Shown here piece by piece: positions 9,047-21,358 of a stretch of DNA of 64,000 bases; the stretch's first letter is position 1, and each line of letters begins with the position of its first letter. The notes under the pieces were generated by a model. It did not search any database. It was not told where the DNA came from and saw only the letters and a program-made list of their open reading frames with translations. A program made the translations under genes and the position numbers. This DNA comes from Streptacidiphilus carbonis. Lineage in GTDB: Bacteria; Actinomycetota; Actinomycetes; Streptomycetales; Streptomycetaceae. The stretch is from assembly GCF_000787775.1 (NCBI RefSeq), contig NZ_BBPM01000005.1, positions 62,001-126,000 of the forward strand, in the 5' to 3' direction.

Positions 9047-10057
9047 TCAAGGGTGCCGTGCGAACCGCAGGTGGGCGGCTTCGAGTGGGGCGTGGGCTGG
9101 GAGTTGGGGGCGGGGGGTCGCGGTGGGCGGGTCGGCTCCGGTGCGTTCGCAGGTCAGCGCGGAGACCAGGATCGCGTCGTCGAGTGCGGCGGCCAGCTCG
9201 TCTTCGGCGGCATCGGCGAGTTGCGCGGGGGCGTGCAGGTCGCGGCGGATCAGGGCGCTGAGCAGTCCCGCGGTGAAGGCGTCGCCGGCGCCGACGGTGT
9301 CGACGACTGCGGCTTTGCGACCGGGCCGGACCAGCGGTGGGCTGTCCGGTCGGAACGCGCGGGCGCCCTCGGCGCCGTCGGTGATGACGACCAGGAGCGC
9401 GCCCAGGGTGAGCCACCGCGTGGCGGCCTGTTCCAGGCCGCCGGGGTAGAGCCACTCGACGTCCTCACGGCTTGCTTTGACCAGGTGCGCGTCGGCGACG
9501 GTCCGTTCGATCAGTGGACGCGCGATGTCTGCGTCACCCAGGAGCGCGGGGCGGACGTTGGGGTCGTAGCTGATGAGCACGTGCCCGCCGCTGCGCAGCC
9601 GGGAGGTGGCGGTGTGGATGTGCTGGTCCCCGGGCGGGGTCCAGGAGGCGACGGAGCCGAGGTGGAGTACGGCGGTGGCTGCGGGGATGCGGGCGGTCTC
9701 GGCTTGGGTCCACTGCCAGTCGGCTGTGCCCTGGTGGTAGAAGTCGTAACTGGCCTGGGCCTCGGCGTCCAGCGACACGACAGCGAGGGTGGTGGGCTCG
9801 GCGGCGTGCGGGGCGCTCCGGAGGTCGATGCCCTCCCGGTCCGCGTGGTTGCGCAGGATTCGGCCGAAGGCGTTGTCGGCCAGCCGTGCCATCATCGCCG
9901 TGCGCTGGCCCAGGCGTGCCAGGCCGACGGCGACGTTGAACGGGCTGCCCCCGGGGCGGGCTTGGAACCGGTCGGGGCCGCCCTGGGGGACGAGGTCGAT
10001 GAGGGCCTCGCCGATCACGGTGACCAGCGGCTGCGGGACGGGCTGCGGTTCAGGCAC
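9047..10057 (-). CDS. PfkB-family fructokinase
   Basis: A 336-residue ribokinase-fold sugar kinase. It shows the N-terminal 'GEALIDLVP', the first PfkB signature 'PGGSPFNVAVGLARLG' (about 35-50), and the second signature 'DTVGAGDAFTAGLLSAL', with the catalytic base Asp259. The length and the GEALID/AGDAF context match bacterial fructokinases (fructose to fructose-6-phosphate). The start overlaps the LacI repressor stop by eight bases, and the locus also encodes a fructose-type ABC importer and a fructan hydrolase. That makes fructose the likely substrate. Confidence 0.88.
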   Translation of the reverse strand: MPEPQPVPQPLVTVIGEALIDLVPQGGPDRFQARPGGSPFNVAVGLARLGQRTAMMARLADNAFGRILRNHADREGIDLRSAPHAAEPTTLAVVSLDAEAQASYDFYHQGTADWQWTQAETARIPAATAVLHLGSVASWTPPGDQHIHTATSRLRSGGHVLISYDPNVRPALLGDADIARPLIERTVADAHLVKASREDVEWLYPGGLEQAATRWLTLGALLVVITDGAEGARAFRPDSPPLVRPGRKAAVVDTVGAGDAFTAGLLSALIRRDLHAPAQLADAAEDELAAALDDAILVSALTCERTGADPPTATPRPQLPAHAPLEAAHLRFARHP

Positions 10058-11108
10058 GGAGCGGCTCTCCCAGCGGAATCTCGCCCGAGCCCCGCGTGAT
10101 CAGGCGGGTGGGAACGGTGGTGGTGGCGGTGGGTGACTGGTCGCCGTCGAGCCTGCGGAACAGCGCGTGCGCGGCGAGACGGCCGATCGCCTCGATGTCC
10201 TGGGCCATGACCGAGATGCCGGGCCGGAGCATGTCGGCCAGCGGGAAGTCGTCGAACCCGACCATGGCGACCCTGTTCTCCAGGGCCAGGTCGCGCAGTG
10301 CCCGGCTGGCGCCGATGGTGACCAGGTTCTGGCTGGTGAACAGCGCGGTCGGCGGATCGGACAGGGCCATCAGGTGCCGTGCGGCCTCGATGGCGCCCTG
10401 TTCGGTGACCAGCCCCTGCTGGATGAGCGTGCGGTCGGCCGTGACCTGGGCCAGTTCCAGCGCGTGCAGGTAGCCGTCCAACCGCTGGGCGGCGGTGGGG
10501 ATCGACGCCTGGTCCCCCAGGAAGGCGATGCGCCGGTGGCCGGCCTCCATGAGGTGCCTGACCGCCGTCACCGCGCCCTGACGGTTGTCGGAGACCACCA
10601 CGTCGGCGTCCAGCAGCTTCGGCTCGCGGTCCACGAACACCAGGCAGGTGCCGGCCCGCTGCTCGGCGATGAGGTAGCTCTGGTCGCGGCCCGCGGGCAC
10701 GATGACCAGTCCGTCGACACGGCGGTCGATCAGCGCGAGGGCCAGTTCGCGTTCGCGGTCCGGGTCCTCGTCCAGGCTGCCGATCAGGACCAGGACGCCG
10801 CGTTCGCGCGCGATGTTCTCCACGGTCCGGATGAGGGCCGCGGAGTAGGGGTTGGCGGCGTCCTCGACCAGCATGCCGATCGTGGCGGTGCGGCCGTCCC
10901 CGCGCCGCAGGTTACTGGCCGTCAGATTCGGCCGGTAGCCGAGCTTCTCCGCGGCCTCGCGCACCCGGGCGGCCATCTGCGGGTCGACCGTGCTCACCCC
11001 GTTGACCACCCGCGACACGGTCTTGGGGGCCACTCCCGCGAGCCTGGCGACCTCCCGCATCGTGGGGCGGCCCGGCCGTCTCGACTGCCCTGGTTCGCCC
11101 TGAGGCAT
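10050..11108 (-). CDS. LacI-family repressor of the fructose/fructan locus
   Basis: The 352-residue protein has an N-terminal LacI helix-turn-helix ('TMREVARLAGVAPKTVSRVVNG', about residues 16-37) and hinge helix, followed by a periplasmic-binding-protein-like effector domain. GGGAGA precedes the ATG. It is co-transcribed with the fructokinase and divergent from the transporter genes, the usual arrangement for a local repressor released by a sugar or sugar phosphate. Fructose or fructose phosphate as effector is inferred from the neighbours. Confidence 0.9.
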   Translation of the reverse strand: MPQGEPGQSRRPGRPTMREVARLAGVAPKTVSRVVNGVSTVDPQMAARVREAAEKLGYRPNLTASNLRRGDGRTATIGMLVEDAANPYSAALIRTVENIARERGVLVLIGSLDEDPDRERELALALIDRRVDGLVIVPAGRDQSYLIAEQRAGTCLVFVDREPKLLDADVVVSDNRQGAVTAVRHLMEAGHRRIAFLGDQASIPTAAQRLDGYLHALELAQVTADRTLIQQGLVTEQGAIEAARHLMALSDPPTALFTSQNLVTIGASRALRDLALENRVAMVGFDDFPLADMLRPGISVMAQDIEAIGRLAAHALFRRLDGDQSPTATTTVPTRLITRGSGEIPLGEPLRA

Positions 11109-11202
11109 CGTTGTCTCCCATGAATCCTGCGTTACCGACTCGTTGCCTGGACACTTCGATCTGTGTCTTGACTCACTTTTGCATGGCGGTCACTCTGATG
11201 TC

Positions 11203-11218
11203 GAGACCACGTTGTCTC
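11203..11218. promoter_or_regulatory. Candidate LacI operator upstream of the transporter
   Basis: GAGAC-CACGTT-GTCTC is an exact inverted repeat centred in the 148-base gap between the LacI gene and the FrcB-like gene. A related CGTTGTCTC half lies next to the LacI start (about 11108-11117). A -35-like TTGACT lies at 11168-11173, but no convincing -10 follows. Binding by the neighbouring LacI protein is inferred. Confidence 0.45.
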
Positions 11219-11256
11219 ACCGTGTCGGGTCGCGATGGTTCGGAAAGGTTTCTGAG

Positions 11257-12387
11257 ATGCACATCTCGATACGCAGCGCGGCAGCGGCGTCGCACGACCG
11301 TTCGCGCCGCCCCCAGCTCGCCTCGGCGGGCCTGGTCGTCTGTCTTGCGGCGTCACTCGCGGCCTGCAGTTCCTCCAGCGGCACCACCGCCACCGGGGGC
11401 TCGGCGTCCGGCGGCGGCGCCAAGGTCGGGGTCGCGTTGATCCTCAAGACGCTGTCCAACCCGTACTTCGTCTCCATGGAGAAGGACGCCAAGACCGAGG
11501 CGGCCAAGGACAACGTGAGCCTGACCGTGGCGGCCGGCAACACCGACGGCGACACCCAGACCCAGATCAGCGCGATCGACACCGCGATCTCCCGCGGCGA
11601 CAAGGGCATCCTGATCACCACCAACGGGGACGCCGTCAACGCGGCGCTGAACCAGGCCAAGCAGGCCGGCCTGTTCGTCATCGCGCTGGACACCGCGACC
11701 AACCCCGCCACCGTCGCGGACATCACCTACGCGACCGACAACACCCAGGCCGGCAAGCTCGACGGCCAGTACGCCGCAACCGCGCTGGGCGGCAAGCCGG
11801 CGGACATAGCCATGCTCGACCTGTTCAACAACCAGGTCGTGTCGGTCGACATCAACCGCGACCACGGGTTCCTGCAGGGCATGGGCATCGACCCGGGCAG
11901 CACCACCCAGAACGCCAAGGAATCCAAGACCGGGAAGTACTCCGGCGGCACCTACACCGTCGCCTGCCACCAGCCGACCCAGGGCGCCATCGACGGCGGC
12001 CGCACCGCGATGGAGAACTGCCTGTCGGCCGACCCGAACATCAACGTCGTGTACGCGATCAACGAACCCGCGGCCGAAGGCGCCTACGCGGCCCTCAAGG
12101 CCGCAGGCAAGACCGACGTCCCGGTCTACGCCATCGACGGCAGCTGCGCCGGCCTCAAGCTGGTCGCCAGCGGCGAGTTGGCCGCCGACGCCGTGCAGTA
12201 CCCCGGCAAGATGGCCAGCCTGGGCGTGGACGCGATCGCCAAGCTGGCCCGGGGCGGCTCCAAGCCCGCGGTGACCTCGGGCAAGGACTTCTACGACACC
12301 GGTACCGCGTTGGCCGCCACGAAGCCGCAGACCGGAGTCACCATCGAGTCCCCCGACCAGGCCGCAGGCGCCTGCTGGGGCAACTAG
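11257..12387 (+). CDS. frcB: FrcB-like sugar-binding lipoprotein of an ABC importer
   Basis: The 376-residue protein has a lipoprotein signal peptide with the lipobox 'LAAC' (Cys37) and then a type-I periplasmic-binding-protein fold starting at 'VGVALILKTLSNPYF'. It resembles the ribose/fructose/xylose group, with 'IDTAISRGDKGILITTNGD' and a C-terminal 'VYAIDGSC'. It captures sugar outside the membrane for the permease and ATPase encoded next. The ATG at 11257 has GGAAAGG eight bases upstream; an upstream in-frame extension lacks a signal sequence and is rejected. The fructose assignment comes from the linked fructokinase, GH32 enzyme and single-domain ATPase. Confidence 0.88.
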   Translation: MHISIRSAAAASHDRSRRPQLASAGLVVCLAASLAACSSSSGTTATGGSASGGGAKVGVALILKTLSNPYFVSMEKDAKTEAAKDNVSLTVAAGNTDGDTQTQISAIDTAISRGDKGILITTNGDAVNAALNQAKQAGLFVIALDTATNPATVADITYATDNTQAGKLDGQYAATALGGKPADIAMLDLFNNQVVSVDINRDHGFLQGMGIDPGSTTQNAKESKTGKYSGGTYTVACHQPTQGAIDGGRTAMENCLSADPNINVVYAINEPAAEGAYAALKAAGKTDVPVYAIDGSCAGLKLVASGELAADAVQYPGKMASLGVDAIAKLARGGSKPAVTSGKDFYDTGTALAATKPQTGVTIESPDQAAGACWGN

Positions 12388-12410
12388 CCCCGCAGCTGCG
12401 GCCCCCGGAC

Positions 12411-12459
12411 CAGGTGCGCCGACGGGCGCCCATCGACCCGACCCTCGTCGGCGCACCTG
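12411..12459 (+). promoter_or_regulatory. Long intercistronic hairpin between binding protein and permease
   Basis: CAGGTGCGCCGACG (12411-12424) and its exact reverse complement (12446-12459) enclose a 21-base loop, starting 24 bases after the frcB stop. The frcB-frcC gap is 237 bases, unlike the overlapping frcC-frcA junction. Such stems often act as partial terminators or mRNA stabilisers that let the binding protein be made in excess. Confidence 0.6.
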
Positions 12460-12624
12460 CACCCCCCGGACGATCCGCGCCACCCGCGCCACCCGCGGAC
12501 CAGCGATTCCGGCACACCTGTACAGCCGTCAGCCACGGGTCGACATCTCCTCTCAGCAGCGCACCCCGCAGGTCCACCACGAATCAGAACGCCGCCGGCC
12601 CACGTCGGCGGCGAAGGGATCCAG

Positions 12625-13659
12625 ATGACCGCCCACGTGGACAGCCACGCCGCACCGACATCGGCGGAGGACTTCCTCAACCGCCGCGCCACCCTGAGCC
12701 AGCGCATCCACACCGTGCTGCACCGCCAGCCCGCACTGAGCCCGGCCATCGTCCTGGTCCTCGCCGGCGCCGTGTTCGCCCTCCTCAACAGCCGCTTCTA
12801 CCAGCTGGGGAACCTGTCGCTGGTCGCGCAGCAGGTCGCCGTCGTCGGCTCCCTGGCGGTGGGCCAGACCCTGGTGATCCTCACCGCCGGCATCGACCTG
12901 TCCATCGGCGCGGTCATGGTGCTCTCCTCCCTGGTCATGTCGAAACTCGCGTTCGACCACGGCGTGCCGGGCGTGCTCGCCCTGCTGATCGGCGCAGCCC
13001 TGGCGGTGGCGGCCCAGGCCGTGAACGGGCTGCTGGTCACCCGCATCAAACTCCCCCCTTTCATCGTGACGCTGGGCACCTTGAGCATCTTCACCGCCGC
13101 CACGCTGATCTTCGCCAAGGGCCAGACCGTAGCCCTGCCCCCCGGCGCGTTCCTGCTGTGGAGCTCGCAGACGATCTCGCTGGGCTCACTGCACCTGACC
13201 ACCGGGGTCCTGCTCATGATCGCCCTCTATGCGGTGATCGGCTTCGCCCTGCGCTACACCGCCTGGGGCCGGCACCTGTACGCGGTGGGCGACGACGTCG
13301 AGGCATCCCGGCTGGCCGGGATCTCCGTCAACCGCGTACTGCTGAGCGCCTACATGGTCGCCGGCCTGGCCATCGCCGTGGCCGCCTGGATCCTGGTGGG
13401 CCGCGTCGGCGGCGGCGACCCCAACAGCGGCATCAACGCCAACCTGGAGTCCATCACCGCCGTCGTCATCGGCGGCACCAGCCTGTTCGGAGGCCGCGGC
13501 GTCGTCCTCGGCTCACTCATCGGCGCCTGCATCGTCCAGGTCTTCGACAACGGCCTGGCGCTGGCCGGATTCGACCCCAACTACCAAGTGCTGGCCGTCG
13601 GCGTCCTGGTGATCGCCGCGGTCTCCGTCGACCAGTGGATCCGGAGCGTGAAGTCATGA
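12625..13659 (+). CDS. frcC: FrcC-like ABC sugar permease
   Basis: A 344-residue RbsC/FrcC-type permease with about ten membrane helices from residue 40 on. It shows the conserved 'LVILTAGIDLSIGAVMVLSS' segment and the cytoplasmic 'GDDVEASRLAGISVNRV' EAA-like loop that contacts the ATPase. 'GGTSLFGGRG' near the C terminus is also typical. The ATG has GAAGGG seven bases upstream. The stop overlaps the start of the ATPase gene (ATGA). A homodimer of this protein would form the channel for the sugar delivered by the FrcB-like lipoprotein. Confidence 0.9.
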   Translation: MTAHVDSHAAPTSAEDFLNRRATLSQRIHTVLHRQPALSPAIVLVLAGAVFALLNSRFYQLGNLSLVAQQVAVVGSLAVGQTLVILTAGIDLSIGAVMVLSSLVMSKLAFDHGVPGVLALLIGAALAVAAQAVNGLLVTRIKLPPFIVTLGTLSIFTAATLIFAKGQTVALPPGAFLLWSSQTISLGSLHLTTGVLLMIALYAVIGFALRYTAWGRHLYAVGDDVEASRLAGISVNRVLLSAYMVAGLAIAVAAWILVGRVGGGDPNSGINANLESITAVVIGGTSLFGGRGVVLGSLIGACIVQVFDNGLALAGFDPNYQVLAVGVLVIAAVSVDQWIRSVKS

Positions 13660-14432
13660 CCGCACCCGTGCTCGAAGCCAAGGGCCTCGTCAAACTCTTC
13701 GGCAGGGTCGTCGGCCTGAACGACGTCGACCTCACCCTGTACCCCGGTGAAGTCCTCGCCGTCATCGGAGACAACGGCGCCGGCAAGTCCACCCTGATCA
13801 AATGCCTGTCCGGAGCCATGGTCCCGGACGAGGGCAGCATCCTGGTCAACGGCTCAGCGGTCCACTTCAAAGGCCCCCAGGACGCCCGCGACGCTGGAAT
13901 CGAGACGGTCTACCAGACCCTGGCAGTGGCCCCCGCCCTGGACATCGCCAGCAACCTCTTCCTGGCCCGCGAGATCCGCCGGAAGGGACCGCTGGGATCC
14001 GTGCTGCGCATGCTCGACACCAGCGCGATGAAGCAGCAGGCGACCGAGCACATCAACCGACTGGGCATCACCACCCTGCAGAACATCGGCCAGGCCGTGG
14101 AAACCCTGTCCGGCGGCCAGCGCCAGGCCGTCGCCGTCGCCAGGGCCGGCGCCTTCGGCGGCAAGGTCGTCATCCTCGACGAACCCACCGCCGCCCTCGG
14201 GGTCCGCGAGACCGGGCAGGTGCTCAAGCTCGTCAAGGACCTGCGCGACCAGGGTCTGGGCATCATCCTGATCAGCCACAACATGCCCAACGTCTTCGAA
14301 GTCGCCGACCGGATCCACATCCAACGCCTCGGCAGCTGCGCCGGCGTCATCACACCCAGGTCCCACTCGATGGAGGACGCGGTGGCCGTGATGACCGGAG
14401 CCAAGACCCTCACTCCCACGAGCGGGACATGA
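13656..14432 (+). CDS. frcA: FrcA-like ABC transporter ATPase, single nucleotide-binding domain
   Basis: The 258-residue ATPase has Walker A 'GDNGAGKS' (about 40), Q-loop 'VYQTLA', signature 'LSGGQRQAVAVARA', Walker B 'KVVILDEPTAAL' and H-loop 'LISHNM'. Most carbohydrate importers of this CUT2 class use a duplicated ~500-residue ATPase. A single-domain version of ~260 residues is characteristic of the fructose system FrcBCA, which supports the fructose assignment. The ATG overlaps the permease stop. The open frame extends far upstream, but only as a shadow of the permease gene. Confidence 0.9.
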   Translation: MTAPVLEAKGLVKLFGRVVGLNDVDLTLYPGEVLAVIGDNGAGKSTLIKCLSGAMVPDEGSILVNGSAVHFKGPQDARDAGIETVYQTLAVAPALDIASNLFLAREIRRKGPLGSVLRMLDTSAMKQQATEHINRLGITTLQNIGQAVETLSGGQRQAVAVARAGAFGGKVVILDEPTAALGVRETGQVLKLVKDLRDQGLGIILISHNMPNVFEVADRIHIQRLGSCAGVITPRSHSMEDAVAVMTGAKTLTPTSGT

Positions 14433-14532: not shown

Positions 14533-15543
14533 GTGGTTCAGTTCAACGTCGAACACGACCGCATCGGCGCCGAGCCCACCGTGGTCGTCTCCGCGACGGA
14601 CGGATCGACACGTCTGGTGATCGCATGCCGCGGCGCGACCCTGCTCAGCTGGCGGAGACGGCTGGGCGGCCATCCGGTGGAGCTCACCGACGGGTACCGC
14701 AGCGAGGCCGAACTCCAGGCCCAGGACGGTGTGCGCAACGGCCTCCTGGCCCCGTTCCCCAACCGGATCGCCGGGGGCCGCTACCGGTTCGAGGGCCGCG
14801 ACCACGACCTGCAGCCGGGCCAGGAACACCCGCGCGAACCCGTCTACCACGGATTCGCCCGCACGGAGCCGTTCGACCTCGACCACGTGGAACCGACGGC
14901 CCACGGAGCCCGGCTGACCTTCCGCAGTACCGGGATCAGGCCCGGAAGGCATCCGGGCTACCCGTTCCCGCTCGACCTCCGAGTGGTCTACCTGATCGGT
15001 GCCGACGCGATCGGGATCGAGATCCGTGCGACCAACACCGGCGAAGTGCCGGCACCGTACGCGGCCGGCTGGCACCCCTACTTCCGCCTGGCGGCGACCA
15101 TCGACACGCTGACCCTGCAGGTCCCCGCCGCGAGCGTCGTCCGCACCGACGACGCGCTGATCCCCCTCCATCCCCCGAACACCATGGCCGCGCTGGAACA
15201 CCAGCCCGCGATGGACTTCCGTCAGCCCCGGACGCTCCGCGGCGCGGTCATCGACGCCTGCTTCAGCGACCTGCGGTTCGCTCCCGACGGACGGGCCGAG
15301 ACCGTGCTGCGTGACCCGCTGACCGGAAGCGAACTGCGGATCTGGCAGGTCAGCGGCCATCTGCACGTGTTCACCGGCGACACCCTGGCCCGGGACCGGC
15401 GCCGGTCCATCGCCCTGGAGCCGGTCGAGACCCTCACCGACGCCTTCAACCGCGACGAGTACGCGTCGGCCATCCGCATCGAACCCGGCGAGGAGCGCCG
15501 TTTCCGCTTCGGCGTCCGCCACCTCCCGCCCGTCAGCGGATGA
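14533..15543 (+). CDS. Aldose-1-epimerase family protein
   Basis: This 336-residue protein has the galactose-mutarotase beta-sandwich fold. Recognisable elements are 'GLLAPFPNRIAGGRYRF', a catalytic-type His in 'PVYHGFAR', 'YAAGWHPYF' with the second His, and a C-terminal 'ALEPVETLTDAFN' containing the glutamate. The family interconverts alpha and beta anomers of aldoses, and some members act on sugar phosphates. AGGAG lies seven bases before the GTG start. It sits between the fructose importer and the GH32 gene, so a role in handling fructan-derived sugars (including glucose ends) is likely. Confidence 0.85.
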   Translation: MVQFNVEHDRIGAEPTVVVSATDGSTRLVIACRGATLLSWRRRLGGHPVELTDGYRSEAELQAQDGVRNGLLAPFPNRIAGGRYRFEGRDHDLQPGQEHPREPVYHGFARTEPFDLDHVEPTAHGARLTFRSTGIRPGRHPGYPFPLDLRVVYLIGADAIGIEIRATNTGEVPAPYAAGWHPYFRLAATIDTLTLQVPAASVVRTDDALIPLHPPNTMAALEHQPAMDFRQPRTLRGAVIDACFSDLRFAPDGRAETVLRDPLTGSELRIWQVSGHLHVFTGDTLARDRRRSIALEPVETLTDAFNRDEYASAIRIEPGEERRFRFGVRHLPPVSG

Positions 15544-15659: not shown

Positions 15660-18215
15660 GTGTCCACAACAACCCGCCGACGCCGCGCACTGCTCATCAC
15701 CGCGGCGACCGCCCTCTGCGGGGCGGCACTGCTCAACACGTCACCGGCCGCAGCCGGCACCCCCTACAGCGAGACCTACCGCCCCCAGTTCCACTTCACC
15801 CCCGCCGGGAACTGGATGAACGACCCCAACGGTCTGATCTACGACAAGGGCCAGTACAACCTTTTCTACCAGTACAACCCGGACGGCAACACCTGGGGCA
15901 ACATGTCCTGGGGCCACGCCGTGAGCACCGACCTGGTGCACTGGGAGCAGCTTCCGATCGCCATCCCGCAGGACGCCGACGAGATGGTCTTCTCCGGCAG
16001 CGTCGTGCGCGACCAGAACAACACCAGCGGCTTCGGCACCCGCTCCGATCCGCCGCTGGTCGCCGTGTACACGAGCTACCGCAAAGCGACCGGCATCCAG
16101 GAGCAGTCGCTGGCCTACAGCACCGACGACGGTCTGACCTGGAAGAAGTACGCCGACAATCCGGTACTCGACATCAACTCGCAGAACTTCCGCGATCCGA
16201 AGGTCTTGTGGTACGCCCCCGCGCACCGCTGGTTGATGACCGTCGCCCTCTCCGCGCAGCACCAGGTCTCGTTCTACAGCTCCACCGACCTCAAGTCCTG
16301 GACCCATCTGAGCGACTTCGGCCCGGCCGGGGCCACCGGCGGAGTCTGGGAGTGCCCGGACCTGTTCCCGCTGGAAGTCGACGGCAACCCCAAGGACGTC
16401 AAATGGGTGCTGGCCGTCGGCACCAACCCGGGATCCATCGCCGGCGGCTCCGGCGTGCAGTACTTCGTCGGCACCTTCAACGGCACCACCTTCGCCGCCG
16501 ACGACCCGGCCGGCTACACGCCGCCGGCCGGCACCGTGCTGCAGGACTTCGAATCCGGCAGCTACGGCGACTGGACGGCGACGGGCACCGCCTTCGCCAC
16601 CGCTCCCGCATCCGGCGCCCTGCCGGGTCAGTCCGCCGTCACCGGAAGCCAGGGAACCTACTTCGCCGACAGCTTCAACGGCGGCGACGCCTCCACCGGC
16701 ACGCTGACCTCCCCGGCCTTCACCGTCACCAGCAACTACATCAACTTCAAGGTCGGCGGCGGCAGCCATGCGTACGTACCCGGCACGATCCTGGGCAACG
16801 AGCCGGTCCCGACCGGCGAACTGCTCGCCGACTTCGAGGGAGGCACGTACTCCAGCCCCATCGGCGACTGGACCAGCAGCGGCACCGCGTTCGGCACCGG
16901 ACCGGCCCGAGGCACCCTGCCCGACCAGCAGCAGGTCACCGGCTACCTCGGCAACGGGCTGGTCAACAGCTACCTGGGCGGCGACACCTCCACCGGCACG
17001 CTGGCCTCGCCGGGCTTCACCATCGACAAGAAGTACCTCGACTTCCTGATCGGCGGCGGCGACCACTCCGCCGGCTCGGCGAACCCGACCGCGGTCGAAC
17101 TCCTGGTCGGCGGCAAGGTGGTGCGCAGCGCCACCGGCTCCAACGACGAGCACCTGAACTGGGACTCCTGGGACCTGTCCGACCTGCAGGGGCAACAGGC
17201 CCAGATCGAGGTCGTCGACGACAACACCGGCGGCTGGGGCCACATCAACCTCGATCAGGCCGTCATGTCCGACACCCAGGCCGAACCCGTCTCCGCCGAG
17301 ACCGGCGTGAACCTGATCGTCAACGGCCAGGTGGTGCAGAGCGCCACCGGCTCCAACTCCGAGAACCTGGACTGGGCTTCCTTCGACACCGCCGCCTACC
17401 GGGGCAAGCAGGCGCAGATCCAGATCGTCGACGACAACACCGGCGGCTGGGCCCACGTCCTGGCCGACGACTTCCAGACCTCCGACCAGCCGGCGGCCTC
17501 CGCCGTCCAGCGCGCGCACTGGATCGACTACGGCGAGGACTTCTACGCCTCCCAGACCTACAACGACGCTCCCGGCGGTCGCCGCATCATGATCGGCTGG
17601 ATGAACAACTGGAACTACGGCGGCAACATCCCGACCAGCCCCTGGCGCAGCGCCGACACCTTCCCGCGTGAGCTGAGCCTGCGGACCGTCGACGGCACGG
17701 TCCAGCTGATCCAGCAACCGGTCGGCGAGCTGGCCGGCCTGCGCGGCACGGGCGTCCAGGTTCCCAGGACCGACGTCACGAACACGACCACGCCGCTCGG
17801 CGTGAACGGCAGCACCCTGGAGATCCAGGCCGGCCTCGAAGCGGGCAACGCCGGACAGTTCGGCCTGGACGTGCACACCGGCAGCGGCCAGCACACCCGG
17901 ATCGGCTACGACACGACCACCGGCGAGGTCTACATCGACCGCACCGCCTCGGGCGTGGTCGATTTCGACCCCGCCTTTCCCGGCATCCACACCGCACCGC
18001 TCGCTCTCCACGGCGGAAGCCTCCACCTGCACATCCTCGTCGACACCTCCTCCGTCGAGGTGTACGCGCAGAACGCCGACGGCGAGCAGGTCGTCCTGAC
18101 CGACCAGGTCTTCCCCGGCCCCTCAAGCACCGGGGTCGACGCCTTCGCCACCGGCGGCACCGCCACCGTCGCCGGCCTGCACGCCTGGCAGCTGAACTCC
18201 ATCTGGAAGCAGTGA
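15660..18215 (+). CDS. Secreted GH32 levanase/inulinase with inserted repeat modules
   Basis: The 851-residue protein has a signal peptide ending near Ala32. The GH32 catalytic triad is clear: nucleophile Asp55 in 'WMNDPNG', transition-state Asp179 in 'FRDPK' and acid/base Glu231 in 'WECPD'. After 'YFVGTFNG' (about 275) the propeller is broken by some 335 residues of repeated modules. It then resumes at 'WIDYGEDFYASQTYND' (about 621) and 'GWMNNWNYGGNIPTSPWR', and ends in the usual beta-sandwich domain. Expected action is hydrolysis of beta-fructans (levan or inulin), releasing fructose for the adjacent Frc importer. AGGAAGG lies seven bases before the GTG start. Levan versus inulin specificity cannot be read here. 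Confidence 0.92.
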   Translation: MSTTTRRRRALLITAATALCGAALLNTSPAAAGTPYSETYRPQFHFTPAGNWMNDPNGLIYDKGQYNLFYQYNPDGNTWGNMSWGHAVSTDLVHWEQLPIAIPQDADEMVFSGSVVRDQNNTSGFGTRSDPPLVAVYTSYRKATGIQEQSLAYSTDDGLTWKKYADNPVLDINSQNFRDPKVLWYAPAHRWLMTVALSAQHQVSFYSSTDLKSWTHLSDFGPAGATGGVWECPDLFPLEVDGNPKDVKWVLAVGTNPGSIAGGSGVQYFVGTFNGTTFAADDPAGYTPPAGTVLQDFESGSYGDWTATGTAFATAPASGALPGQSAVTGSQGTYFADSFNGGDASTGTLTSPAFTVTSNYINFKVGGGSHAYVPGTILGNEPVPTGELLADFEGGTYSSPIGDWTSSGTAFGTGPARGTLPDQQQVTGYLGNGLVNSYLGGDTSTGTLASPGFTIDKKYLDFLIGGGDHSAGSANPTAVELLVGGKVVRSATGSNDEHLNWDSWDLSDLQGQQAQIEVVDDNTGGWGHINLDQAVMSDTQAEPVSAETGVNLIVNGQVVQSATGSNSENLDWASFDTAAYRGKQAQIQIVDDNTGGWAHVLADDFQTSDQPAASAVQRAHWIDYGEDFYASQTYNDAPGGRRIMIGWMNNWNYGGNIPTSPWRSADTFPRELSLRTVDGTVQLIQQPVGELAGLRGTGVQVPRTDVTNTTTPLGVNGSTLEIQAGLEAGNAGQFGLDVHTGSGQHTRIGYDTTTGEVYIDRTASGVVDFDPAFPGIHTAPLALHGGSLHLHILVDTSSVEVYAQNADGEQVVLTDQVFPGPSSTGVDAFATGGTATVAGLHAWQLNSIWKQ

Positions 18216-19118: not shown

Positions 19119-21358
19119 TCAGTTGATCGGGACGGGCGGGCTGAGCCGGATGTGACTGGGGGTCGTGTACAGGACGGGGCCGGTGCTGGAGGGGATGGTT
19201 CCGGCGCGCAGTGCGAGGCCCCCGCTGACGGTGTACATGGCTTCGTCGAAGGCCTGGCCGTTGGTGGGCGCCTTGCCGACGGGGAACAGGCCGATGCTCT
19301 TTCCCGCGACCACCGAGGTGGAGATGTAGTCGCCGACCATCGGGCCCTGCGAGGTGGAGGCGATCTGGGCCAGCGTCATGGGTCCGGCCACGGTCTGGGC
19401 GGTGCTCCAGGTGGAGCCGCCGTTGGTGGAAGAGGTGAAGCCGACCTCCAGTTGGCAGGTGGCGGCGGTGCAGCTGTGGTTGGGGTAGAAGTAGTAGTAC
19501 AGGCCCAGTTTGGCGGTGGCGCCGGAGGTGGTGGGGTCCACGCCCAGGCCGGGGGTGAAGTGGTCGGCACTGCTGGTGACCGCGTCGATGGGCACCCGCG
19601 TCACGGCGGTCCAACTGGTGCCGTTGGTGGTGGTGGAGTAGACGATGTCGTTGCTGGGGCAGCCGGAGCGGAAGCGGCAGTCCTGCCAGGCGACGTAGAT
19701 CTTGCCGGCAGCGTCGATCTCCGCGGACGGCAGGCCGTCGCCGGCGCGCAGGCCGCCCGAGACGGTGGCCGAGGAGATGTTGGCGACCAGGACCGAGGAG
19801 CCCCAGGACGCTCCCCCGTTGGTGGAGCTGAAGGAGCGGATCGAGGAGCCGTCGGTGGAGAACGGGACCACGACGGTGCCGTTCGGTTGGACCAGGGGCT
19901 GGCCGCCGAGGCCGGAGTCGCCGCTGGCCGGGGAGGCGGGGGCGGACCAGGTCGCGCCGCCGTCGGTGGAGGTGGACATGATCTCCTGGTTGCCGCTGGA
20001 GGTGATGTCGGCCTCGATGTAGCAGTTGCCGTAGTGCGGGCTGGTGCTGGTGTTGTCGCAGGCGATCCATTCCTTGTCGTAGCCCTGGCCGTCGTTGCCG
20101 ACCGCGAGTACGGGGTTCTGCCAGGTCAGGCCGTCGGCGGAGCGGCTGACGGTGACTCCTGCGCCGTTGACGTTGGCGTCCAGGACCAGTCCGACGATCA
20201 TCCAGGTGCCGTGTTTGGCGTCGTAGCTGACCGATGCGTCCGAGACCCGGGCCCACGGGCCTGATCCCTGATAGGTGGTGATGCCGGGAAGCATGCCGTG
20301 CTGCCAGGTGGCGCCGCCGTCGGTCGAGGTGTTCCAGCTGATGTCGGAGGCTCCCCCGTCGTAGAACGGCCGACCTGGGAGGAGGACACGATGGTGCTGC
20401 CGTGGGCGAAGGTGTCGGGTTCGACCTCGGTGGCGTGCTGGCTGGTGGAGTTGGTGAACGGGTCGGTGCTGATCTGTACCAGGCTCGGTCCGCTGCCGTT
20501 GACGGTCAGGGTGAACGTGGTGGTGTGGGTGGCCGACGTCCCGGTGCCCGTGACGGTGATCGGATAGCTGCCGGCCGGGGTCGAGGCGGCGGTGCTCACG
20601 GTGAGGGTGGAGGAGGCGCCGGCGGTCACCGAGGCCGGATTGAAGGTCGCGGTCGCGCCGGTGGGCAGGCCGCTCGCCGAGAAGGCGACGGTCTGGGCCG
20701 CCCCCGAGGTGACGGCCGTGGTCAGCGTCGAGGCCGCCGAGGCGCCGGGGTTGACCGCCGCCGCTGCAGGGCTGTCGGTCAGTGAGAAGTCGTTGGTGGT
20801 GGTTCCGCCGGTCAGGGCGATGTCGTCGTACAGGGTGTAGGTCGGGTCGCCCGTGTAGTTGTCGTCCTTGCTGGTCAGTGTCAGCGTGTAGTTGTGGCCC
20901 GCGGTGACGGCCTTGCTGACCTGCTTCCAGCCGGAGTTGGCCACGCAGGTCTTGGCCAGCACCGTGGTCGTGGTCCCGGCGGTGGTGTCCGCCAGGGTGG
21001 CGGTGGCCCAGTCGTAGGTCACGGTGTCGGGGCAGGTGACGTCGTACCAGAAGGACAGCACCGGGCTGCCCGCGGGCGCGGTGAAGGACTGCGCGATCGA
21101 GGAAGCGCCGTTGGTCGGCGAGGAACTGCCGAGCTCGGCGGCGTAGGTTCCGCTGTGCGGGCCGCTGGTGGTGACGCCGGTGGCGGGTCCGGTGGCGGTC
21201 CAGCCGGAGAGGCTGCCGGTCTCGAAGCCGCCGTTGGTGATCGAGGTCGCTGCGGTGGCGGGGGTGGCCGCGACGGCGAGCCCCCCGGCGAGCAGGGCGG
21301 CGGTGGAGGCAGTGGAGGCGATGGCGCGCCACCAGCCCCGTGGGCGTAAGGACTTCAT
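19119..21358 (-). pseudogene. Secreted BNR/Asp-box (sialidase-like) protein, frameshifted
   Basis: Two minus-strand frames together make one coherent protein. The first (start ATG 21356-21358, AGGAG upstream) encodes a signal peptide ending 'TPATAA', a beta-sandwich domain ('NGGFETGSLSGWTATG') and an Ig-like linker up to 'AHGSTIVSSSQVGR' near 20367. The frame then shifts. The continuation 'FYDGGASDISWNTSTDGGATW' and several 'DGGATW'/'NGGASW' Asp boxes form a beta-propeller running to the stop at 19119. One missing base in the CGGCC run around 20366-20371 explains the break. Proteins of this build include exo-sialidases and other secreted glycan hydrolases, but catalytic residues cannot be confirmed. 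The break may be a sequencing error or a true mutation. Confidence 0.7.

Follow-up and report, generated by a model that had tools for sequence, protein, structure and literature searches.

A carbohydrate-binding-like module predicted to be nested within its own homologue in a GH32 fructanase of Streptacidiphilus carbonis

A GH32 exo-fructanase-like gene of Streptacidiphilus carbonis carries within its catalytic domain a long extra stretch, in which two related first halves (A) are followed by two related second halves (B). This order raises the question whether one whole A-B module lies inside another, which halves belong together, and how such an arrangement arose. The gene occupies positions 15660..18215 on the forward strand of the analysed 64,000-nt stretch (the window), and encodes a protein of 851 aa with a GTG start and, by eye, a signal-like N-terminus. 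The first part of the propeller (15771..16520, +, residues ~38-287) includes the motifs WMNDPNG, RDP and WECPD, while the GH32 remainder (17511..18212, +, residues 618-851) consists of the propeller from WIDYGEDFYA onwards and the C-terminal beta-sandwich. A Pfam scan of the protein assigned PF00251 (Glyco_hydro_32N) to residues 45-292 with 322 bits (cut-off 22.1) and PF08244 (Glyco_hydro_32C) to residues 690-844 with 118.3 bits (cut-off 21.9), and placed no family between the two. The motifs NDPNG, RDP and EC, which we take to be the catalytic motifs of GH32, are present as WMNDPNG at residue 52, RDPK at 178 and ECPD at 231. Judged by its sequence, the protein is probably a GH32 fructan hydrolase and putatively secreted.

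The best-scoring solved GH32 structure, the exo-inulinase 8i12 (E 9.1e-148), covers residues 22-280 and then 613-836, and has 11 residues opposite the 332 aa at 281-612 of the query. Thus, about 320 residues are extra relative to 8i12, and the additional stretch in the propeller, originally put at about 335 residues, is real. The exo-inulinase or beta-fructosidase structures 8i12 and 1y4w have the catalytic domain, the motifs and the C-terminal sandwich in common with the 851-aa protein, but between the matched parts they hold 11 and 4 residues, respectively, compared to about 330.

The whole insert spans about 16527-17498 (+, residues ~290-613), so that the coordinates given in the original prediction were accurate to within a few codons; its quoted strings YFVGTFNG, DFESGSYGDW, DFEGGTYSSP, ELLVGGKVV, NLIVNGQVV and WIDYGEDFYA were found at the residues stated (268, 296, 391, 480, 551 and 621). 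The order is A1-A2-Bm-Bo, where Bm denotes the middle and Bo the last B half, and the terms outer and inner module refer to A1+Bo and A2+Bm, respectively. A1, the first half of the outer module (16536..16772, +, residues ~293-371), is connected by a linker (16773..16820, +, residues 372-387) to the contiguous inner module (16821..17273, +, residues ~388-538; A2 388-470, Bm 479-538), and a second linker (17274..17306, +, residues 539-549) leads to Bo, the second half of the outer module (17307..17486, +, residues ~550-609). A1 and A2 aligned with a score of 236 compared to a mean of 37 (sd 7, maximum 75) in 1000 shuffles, and Bm and Bo with 188 compared to a mean of 27 (sd 5, maximum 49), which bears out the proposed A-A-B-B order. 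Likeness between A and B halves was at shuffle level in all three pairs compared. No other copy of the insert was matched in the same genome at E up to 0.01. This genome has a second GH32-like gene (G000:C58:16186-16869, L018) with one TGA within the match.

Structure prediction, proposed earlier as a check on the pairing of the halves, was applied to the insert alone. The AlphaFold model built from 62 sequences was of moderate confidence (pLDDT 70, pTM 0.57). When this model was compared to known structures with VIA-align, 26 of 50 rows spanned residues 1-3 to 320-324 of the insert with only 124-147 residues aligned, and 24 rows spanned 93-98 to 248-256, corresponding to the inner A2-Bm pair, whereas crossed spans occurred in none of the 50. 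These rows give the first and last aligned residue only and are not independent, including several meprins and many CBM29 mutants. A single domain composed of A1 and Bo, with the inner domain passed over in the alignment, would give such long-span rows. In the predicted structure, the host module is hence split in sequence and continuous in structure, with the guest module in the gap. Predicted on its own, the inner module reached a pLDDT of 72 and a pTM of 0.76, with weak loops in the A half.

The module was found in 55 of 394 genomes in a family-level search, at least 38 of which showed the nested pattern of A alone, whole module and B alone, and in 4 of 396 genomes in a phylum-wide search; the full double was present in 10 of 61 genomes, including that of the window. 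A genome scan yielded at least 576 confirmed stretches, of which 80 were kept, all from Streptomyces or Kitasatospora. Plasmid records with the module comprised Actinomyces oris (nested), Arthrobacter (nested, frame broken), Catenovulum (single and tandem), Pseudalkalibacillus (in another GH32 loop), a Sinorhizobium fragment and three Streptomyces records. The Catenovulum adriaticum plasmid region (L119, 15000-49001) encodes SusC, SusD, two GH32 proteins with a single module at the site discussed here and GH32 proteins with tandem modules. A 680-residue ABABAB frame adjoins SusC/SusD in this region, and its modules are low-scoring and distant. In the Pseudalkalibacillus plasmid (L121, 2288-5872) the propeller is cut elsewhere, around position 195 of the N part of the query, by a longer insert in which the B half scores and an A-like stretch can be recognised by eye.

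To tally the architectures, loci were scanned with separate profiles of each half, and the count covered 136 distinct ORFs in which both halves were matched. The nested arrangement, N-AABB-C, accounted for 105 ORFs. Seven ORFs (L012, L036, two in L119, L129, L152 and L153) had one module at that position of GH32 (N-AB-C), and one had a tandem there (N-ABAB-C). In seven further ORFs the module followed GH32 (five N-C-A-B and two N-A-B with the module far after the propeller), in five it preceded GH32, and the remaining 11 were tandem arrays, one lone A-B and cut or broken frames; tandem arrays occur in the Catenovulum region and, before GH32, in L165. An N-terminal module variant in L026 is, we presume, possibly CBM38-like. 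Since tandem whole modules read ABAB, A-B is the unit; it is a single portable module that occurs before, behind and within GH32 and in tandem. The 171 frames with a match, a number in which overlapping loci are counted repeatedly, included no triple nest.

Unbalanced numbers of halves were confined to a minority of frames: ABB in L039 and L069, AAB in L120, and B alone in L121, L122 and L170. Seven ORFs were left out of the tally, missing a scored A or B half or repeating a counted region; those with an unscored half were the second frames of L037 and L120, and L121, L122 and L170. The L037 frame is cut at a contig end, L120 switches frame within the middle B half, L122 is a fragment, and L039 and L069 have no recognisable A1 or GH32 N part, though their frames are long. 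The modules of L121, L170 and some L119 proteins are distant, and their A halves may score too low.

An alignment showed, at one and the same position of the GH32 domain, a protein without insert (L014), one with a single module (L012) and doubles. The homologues proposed for comparison, those with one or no module, therefore exist: L012, L036, L119, L129, L152 and L153 have single A-B modules there, which are guest-free homologues of the host module, and there are insert-free proteins in 16 of the 47 rows of the GH32-body tree. In the single-module L012 protein, the end of A runs directly into B exactly where the doubles hold A2-Bm. The inner joint is equally long in all 76 loci compared; another measure gives 6 residues for the window and for 4 of the 7 singles, and 3, 4 and 8 residues for the remaining singles. 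In Kitasatospora phosalacinea (L036), a gene with a nested double adjoins one with a single module. Similarly, a locus in another genome of the organism's family (L163, 1-9001, G580) has adjoining GH32 frames with nested AABB and tandem ABAB modules at the same site. The tandem copies share 137 identical residues of 147-148 (about 93%), and this duplication looks recent from its sequence. As the tandem exists beside AABB and looks different, the AABB order is no quirk of reading.

Co-divergence of the halves was assessed in a mirror-tree test on 23 non-redundant doubles with the GH32-body distance partialled out. The partial r was 0.81 for A2-Bm, 0.30 for both A2-Bo and A1-Bm, and 0.22 for A1-Bo; without L011 and L118, it was 0.12 for A1-Bo compared to 0.30 for A1-Bm. 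By this measure the inner halves clearly co-diverge, and the outer pair showed no excess co-divergence over the crossed pairs among these 23 doubles. For outer pairing, support comes from the fold spans and from a single homologue, the one-module protein L153. In the A half of this protein, identity to the nine type-I doubles defined below amounts to 68% for A1 and 39% for A2, and in its B half to 74% for Bo and 53% for Bm. Compared to the 94 type-II doubles, the respective values are 62% and 68% for the A half, which here does not favour A1, and 65% and 55% for the B half, which again favours Bo. A quick tree search on the GH32 body placed L153 with doubles around it (SH-aLRT 84-93). Its joint, TDGADTQT, is similar to what would result if the beginning of the A1-A2 linker were fused to the end of the Bm-Bo linker. 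The likeness of its halves to A1 and Bo of the type-I doubles, its place in the tree and its joint suggest, in this one case, that L153 lost its inner module. The Kitasatospora singles are nearer to the type-II inner A2 than to A1 (73% versus 64% in L036).

Altogether, we estimate a probability of about 0.85 that a loop of the GH32 propeller has been opened by a CBM-like jelly roll with a putative role in fructan binding, which itself has been opened at its A/B joint by a homologous jelly roll. The fold spans, the single-module homologues and the ABAB tandems support the insertion into an insertion that was originally proposed. The accompanying idea of a module inside a copy of itself held for the nesting, but the inner module is not a close copy in every case, that of a second lineage being of another subtype. 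Two subtypes of the inner module can be distinguished, with 9 type-I doubles and 94 type-II doubles carrying the common type; these labels derive from the A tree and inspection by eye, and two of the 105 doubles (L011 and L118) fall in neither. The type-I representatives L005, L006, L010, L154 and L166 have A2 halves that group with C-terminal modules in the A tree (SH-aLRT 90).

The predicted inner module resembled CBM29, CBM16, CBM61 and a porphyran CBM with Z 8.4-9.1, with reelin repeats and Stig cyclases tied within 1 Z. The match to the CBM29 structure 1gwk reached Z 9.1 with an rmsd of 3.5 over 127 of 141 residues aligned, Foldseek ranked the CBM6 structure 1gmm best (E 3.1e-4), and one outer-spanning VIA-align row matched a porphyran CBM with Z 10.0 over 128 of 137 residues. 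These modest scores fix the fold class of the model, a CBM-like jelly roll, and not the family. None of six modules matched a Pfam family at E up to 10, and one further single module gave CBM_35 with 14.7 bits (cut-off 28) and DUF5753 with 12.1 bits (cut-off 23.4), both below threshold. Comparison of the module profile to the sequences of solved structures gave two weak matches only, to bean alpha-amylase inhibitor (E 0.004-0.006); no stretch of them passed alone, and they were discounted as chance. In the listed alignment columns, one residue exceeds 75% in both the 105 inner and the 105 outer copies, and signature residues such as D442, G446, S450, F453, G493, D520 and W526-G-H are kept in both modules. 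This implies that neither module looks like a relic. At position 504, tryptophan is present in all inner modules (W 1.00) and phenylalanine in 90% of the outer equivalents, and this W/F switch may reflect different functions of the host and guest modules.

Several other readings of the locus have to be weighed. Duplications of half-modules could have produced the AABB order without nesting, with A and B as separate small domains or paired crosswise (A1-Bm and A2-Bo). Such a history would agree with the lack of similarity between A and B, with the unremarkable co-divergence of the outer pair and with the unbalanced half counts. We nevertheless regard it as very improbable, because none of the VIA-align rows was crossed, A-B recurs as a whole ahead of, behind and inside GH32 and in tandem, A2 and Bm co-diverge strongly, and the unbalanced frames include a frame change, a contig end, cases with A1 and the GH32 N part unfound and distant modules. 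A different account leaves the protein nested but derives AABB from stepwise recombination between paralogues, through duplications of A and B, conversion and cassette exchange. In L003 (G011), A1 and A2 share a run of 45 identical residues and 66 identical bases, compared to a median of 15 bases in the 105 doubles, a stretch that shows, as far as sequence can tell, gene conversion between host and guest halves. The relationships of insert and GH32 body conflict: L003 and L005 are 84% identical in the body, with 45% in A2 and 60% in Bm, whereas L003 and the L036 double are 63% identical in the body, with 76% in A2 and 71% in Bm. For L005, where Bo is also nearer to type I, exchange of the whole insert would explain the data as well as exchange of the inner module. 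Adjoining paralogues that differ in module number, and the lack of clean single-origin groups of halves in the half-module trees, likewise speak for the stepwise account; these trees were poorly resolved (43 of 66 and 42 of 66 inner branches open). However, duplication of a half needs an intermediate with an unpaired half, of which no clear intact case was seen in the frames scanned, and the inner halves co-diverge; we therefore consider stepwise assembly unlikely. The GH32-body tree requires at least six changes of module state, with gain and loss indistinguishable.

The nested modules might also serve a structural purpose, in stability, spacing, oligomerisation or contact with the cell surface, instead of binding fructan. 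No sugar-binding residue was identified in them, and their fold class includes MAM domains, reelin repeats and ephrin-receptor domains. On the other hand, most tallied ORFs place the module in GH32 proteins, tandem arrays adjoin SusC/SusD beside GH32 genes, and CBMs head the matches for the inner module on its own, together with others of equal rank, which makes a purely structural role doubtful, if somewhat less so than stepwise assembly. Fructan binding by the modules is putative and inferred from the company they keep, namely GH32, sugar genes and SusC/SusD; the two fructan-binding surfaces near the active site that were originally proposed are likewise putative.

If the nested modules do bind fructan, their position suggests how they could act. 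About twelve residues separate the end of Bo from WIDYGEDFYA, the apparent start of the next blade, and the motifs WMNDPNG, RDP and WECPD each seem to stand ahead of a blade's first strand. With the catalytic motifs at the starts of earlier blades and Bo just before the next one, the insert would leave from the active-site face, and this layout of motifs, together with general knowledge of GH32, would put the modules at its rim. There they could hold the fructan chain, two binding plates providing avidity. Upstream of the fructanase gene, genes for a PfkB-family sugar kinase, possibly a fructokinase (9047..10057, -), and a LacI-family regulator (10050..11108, -) are followed by a sugar ABC importer (11143..14432, +; binding protein 11143-12384, permease 12625-13656, ATPase 13644-14429) and an aldose 1-epimerase family protein (14533..15543, +). 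The adjoining ABC system would take up the freed fructose and the PfkB kinase would phosphorylate it, with the LacI-family regulator in control. A 737-aa frame adjoining the fructanase gene (19119-21332, -) matched BNR_2 with 31.3 bits, just below the Pfam cut-off of 31.4. As a speculative extension that is probably not correct, the outer module could be a rigid host on which an interchangeable inner cassette for specificity is docked above the active site of GH32, with A2+Bm swapped between subtypes, lost cleanly and regained at the A/B joint while the outer module and the enzyme stay, and with nested and tandem forms presenting fructan differently.

Separate elements of this architecture have precedents. 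The Xyn10C-like GH10 xylanase Pm25 is reported to have two CBM4 modules in its catalytic domain, consecutive at residues 161-321 and 324-486 (PMC7848910). There, two homologous binding modules are inserted likewise, yet one after the other and not nested, the GH32 counterpart being the L163 tandem. For the SI3 region of cyanobacterial RNA polymerase, a recursive A1-B1-C-B2-A2 insertion is described, with 33 of 59 insertions involving single hybrid motifs (PMC13114784). On this description, SI3 shares the nesting but differs in fold and role from the CBM-like module pair, and the fructanase, unlike SI3, has homologous CBM-like host and guest in an enzyme loop, with single, tandem and nested forms at one site. 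CE20 esterases are reported to carry a beta-sandwich ancillary domain inserted in the catalytic domain over the substrate-binding region (PMC12313940); this is likewise an inserted beta-sandwich, but a single domain in another enzyme fold and not nested.

Among fructan binders of GH32 enzymes, one report lists the beta-sandwich modules CBM38, from the CFTase of Paenibacillus macerans, and CBM66, from SacC, to which DUF4960 is added, and describes CBM38 as residues 32-389 of the P. macerans CFTase with two beta-sandwiches (PMC10076258). The A-B module may conceivably be a relative of CBM38. No nested modules in GH32 were found in the titles and abstract beginnings retrieved from the open-access literature. 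Inserted CBMs and recursive insertions are thus already known, and a CBM-like module nested in its own homologue within an enzyme loop, with single and tandem forms at the same site, would be a new variation on them.

Domain insertions between homologues are difficult to investigate where intermediates are lacking. At the GH32 site described above, zero, one, two tandem and two nested modules are found, adjoining paralogues differ in two cases, and there is one probable loss of an inner module. This natural series at one site makes it testable with natural sequences how proteins survive an insertion into an insertion. Moreover, the module, for which there is no Pfam model, is a candidate fructan binder and a natural acceptor site for domain insertions in protein engineering.
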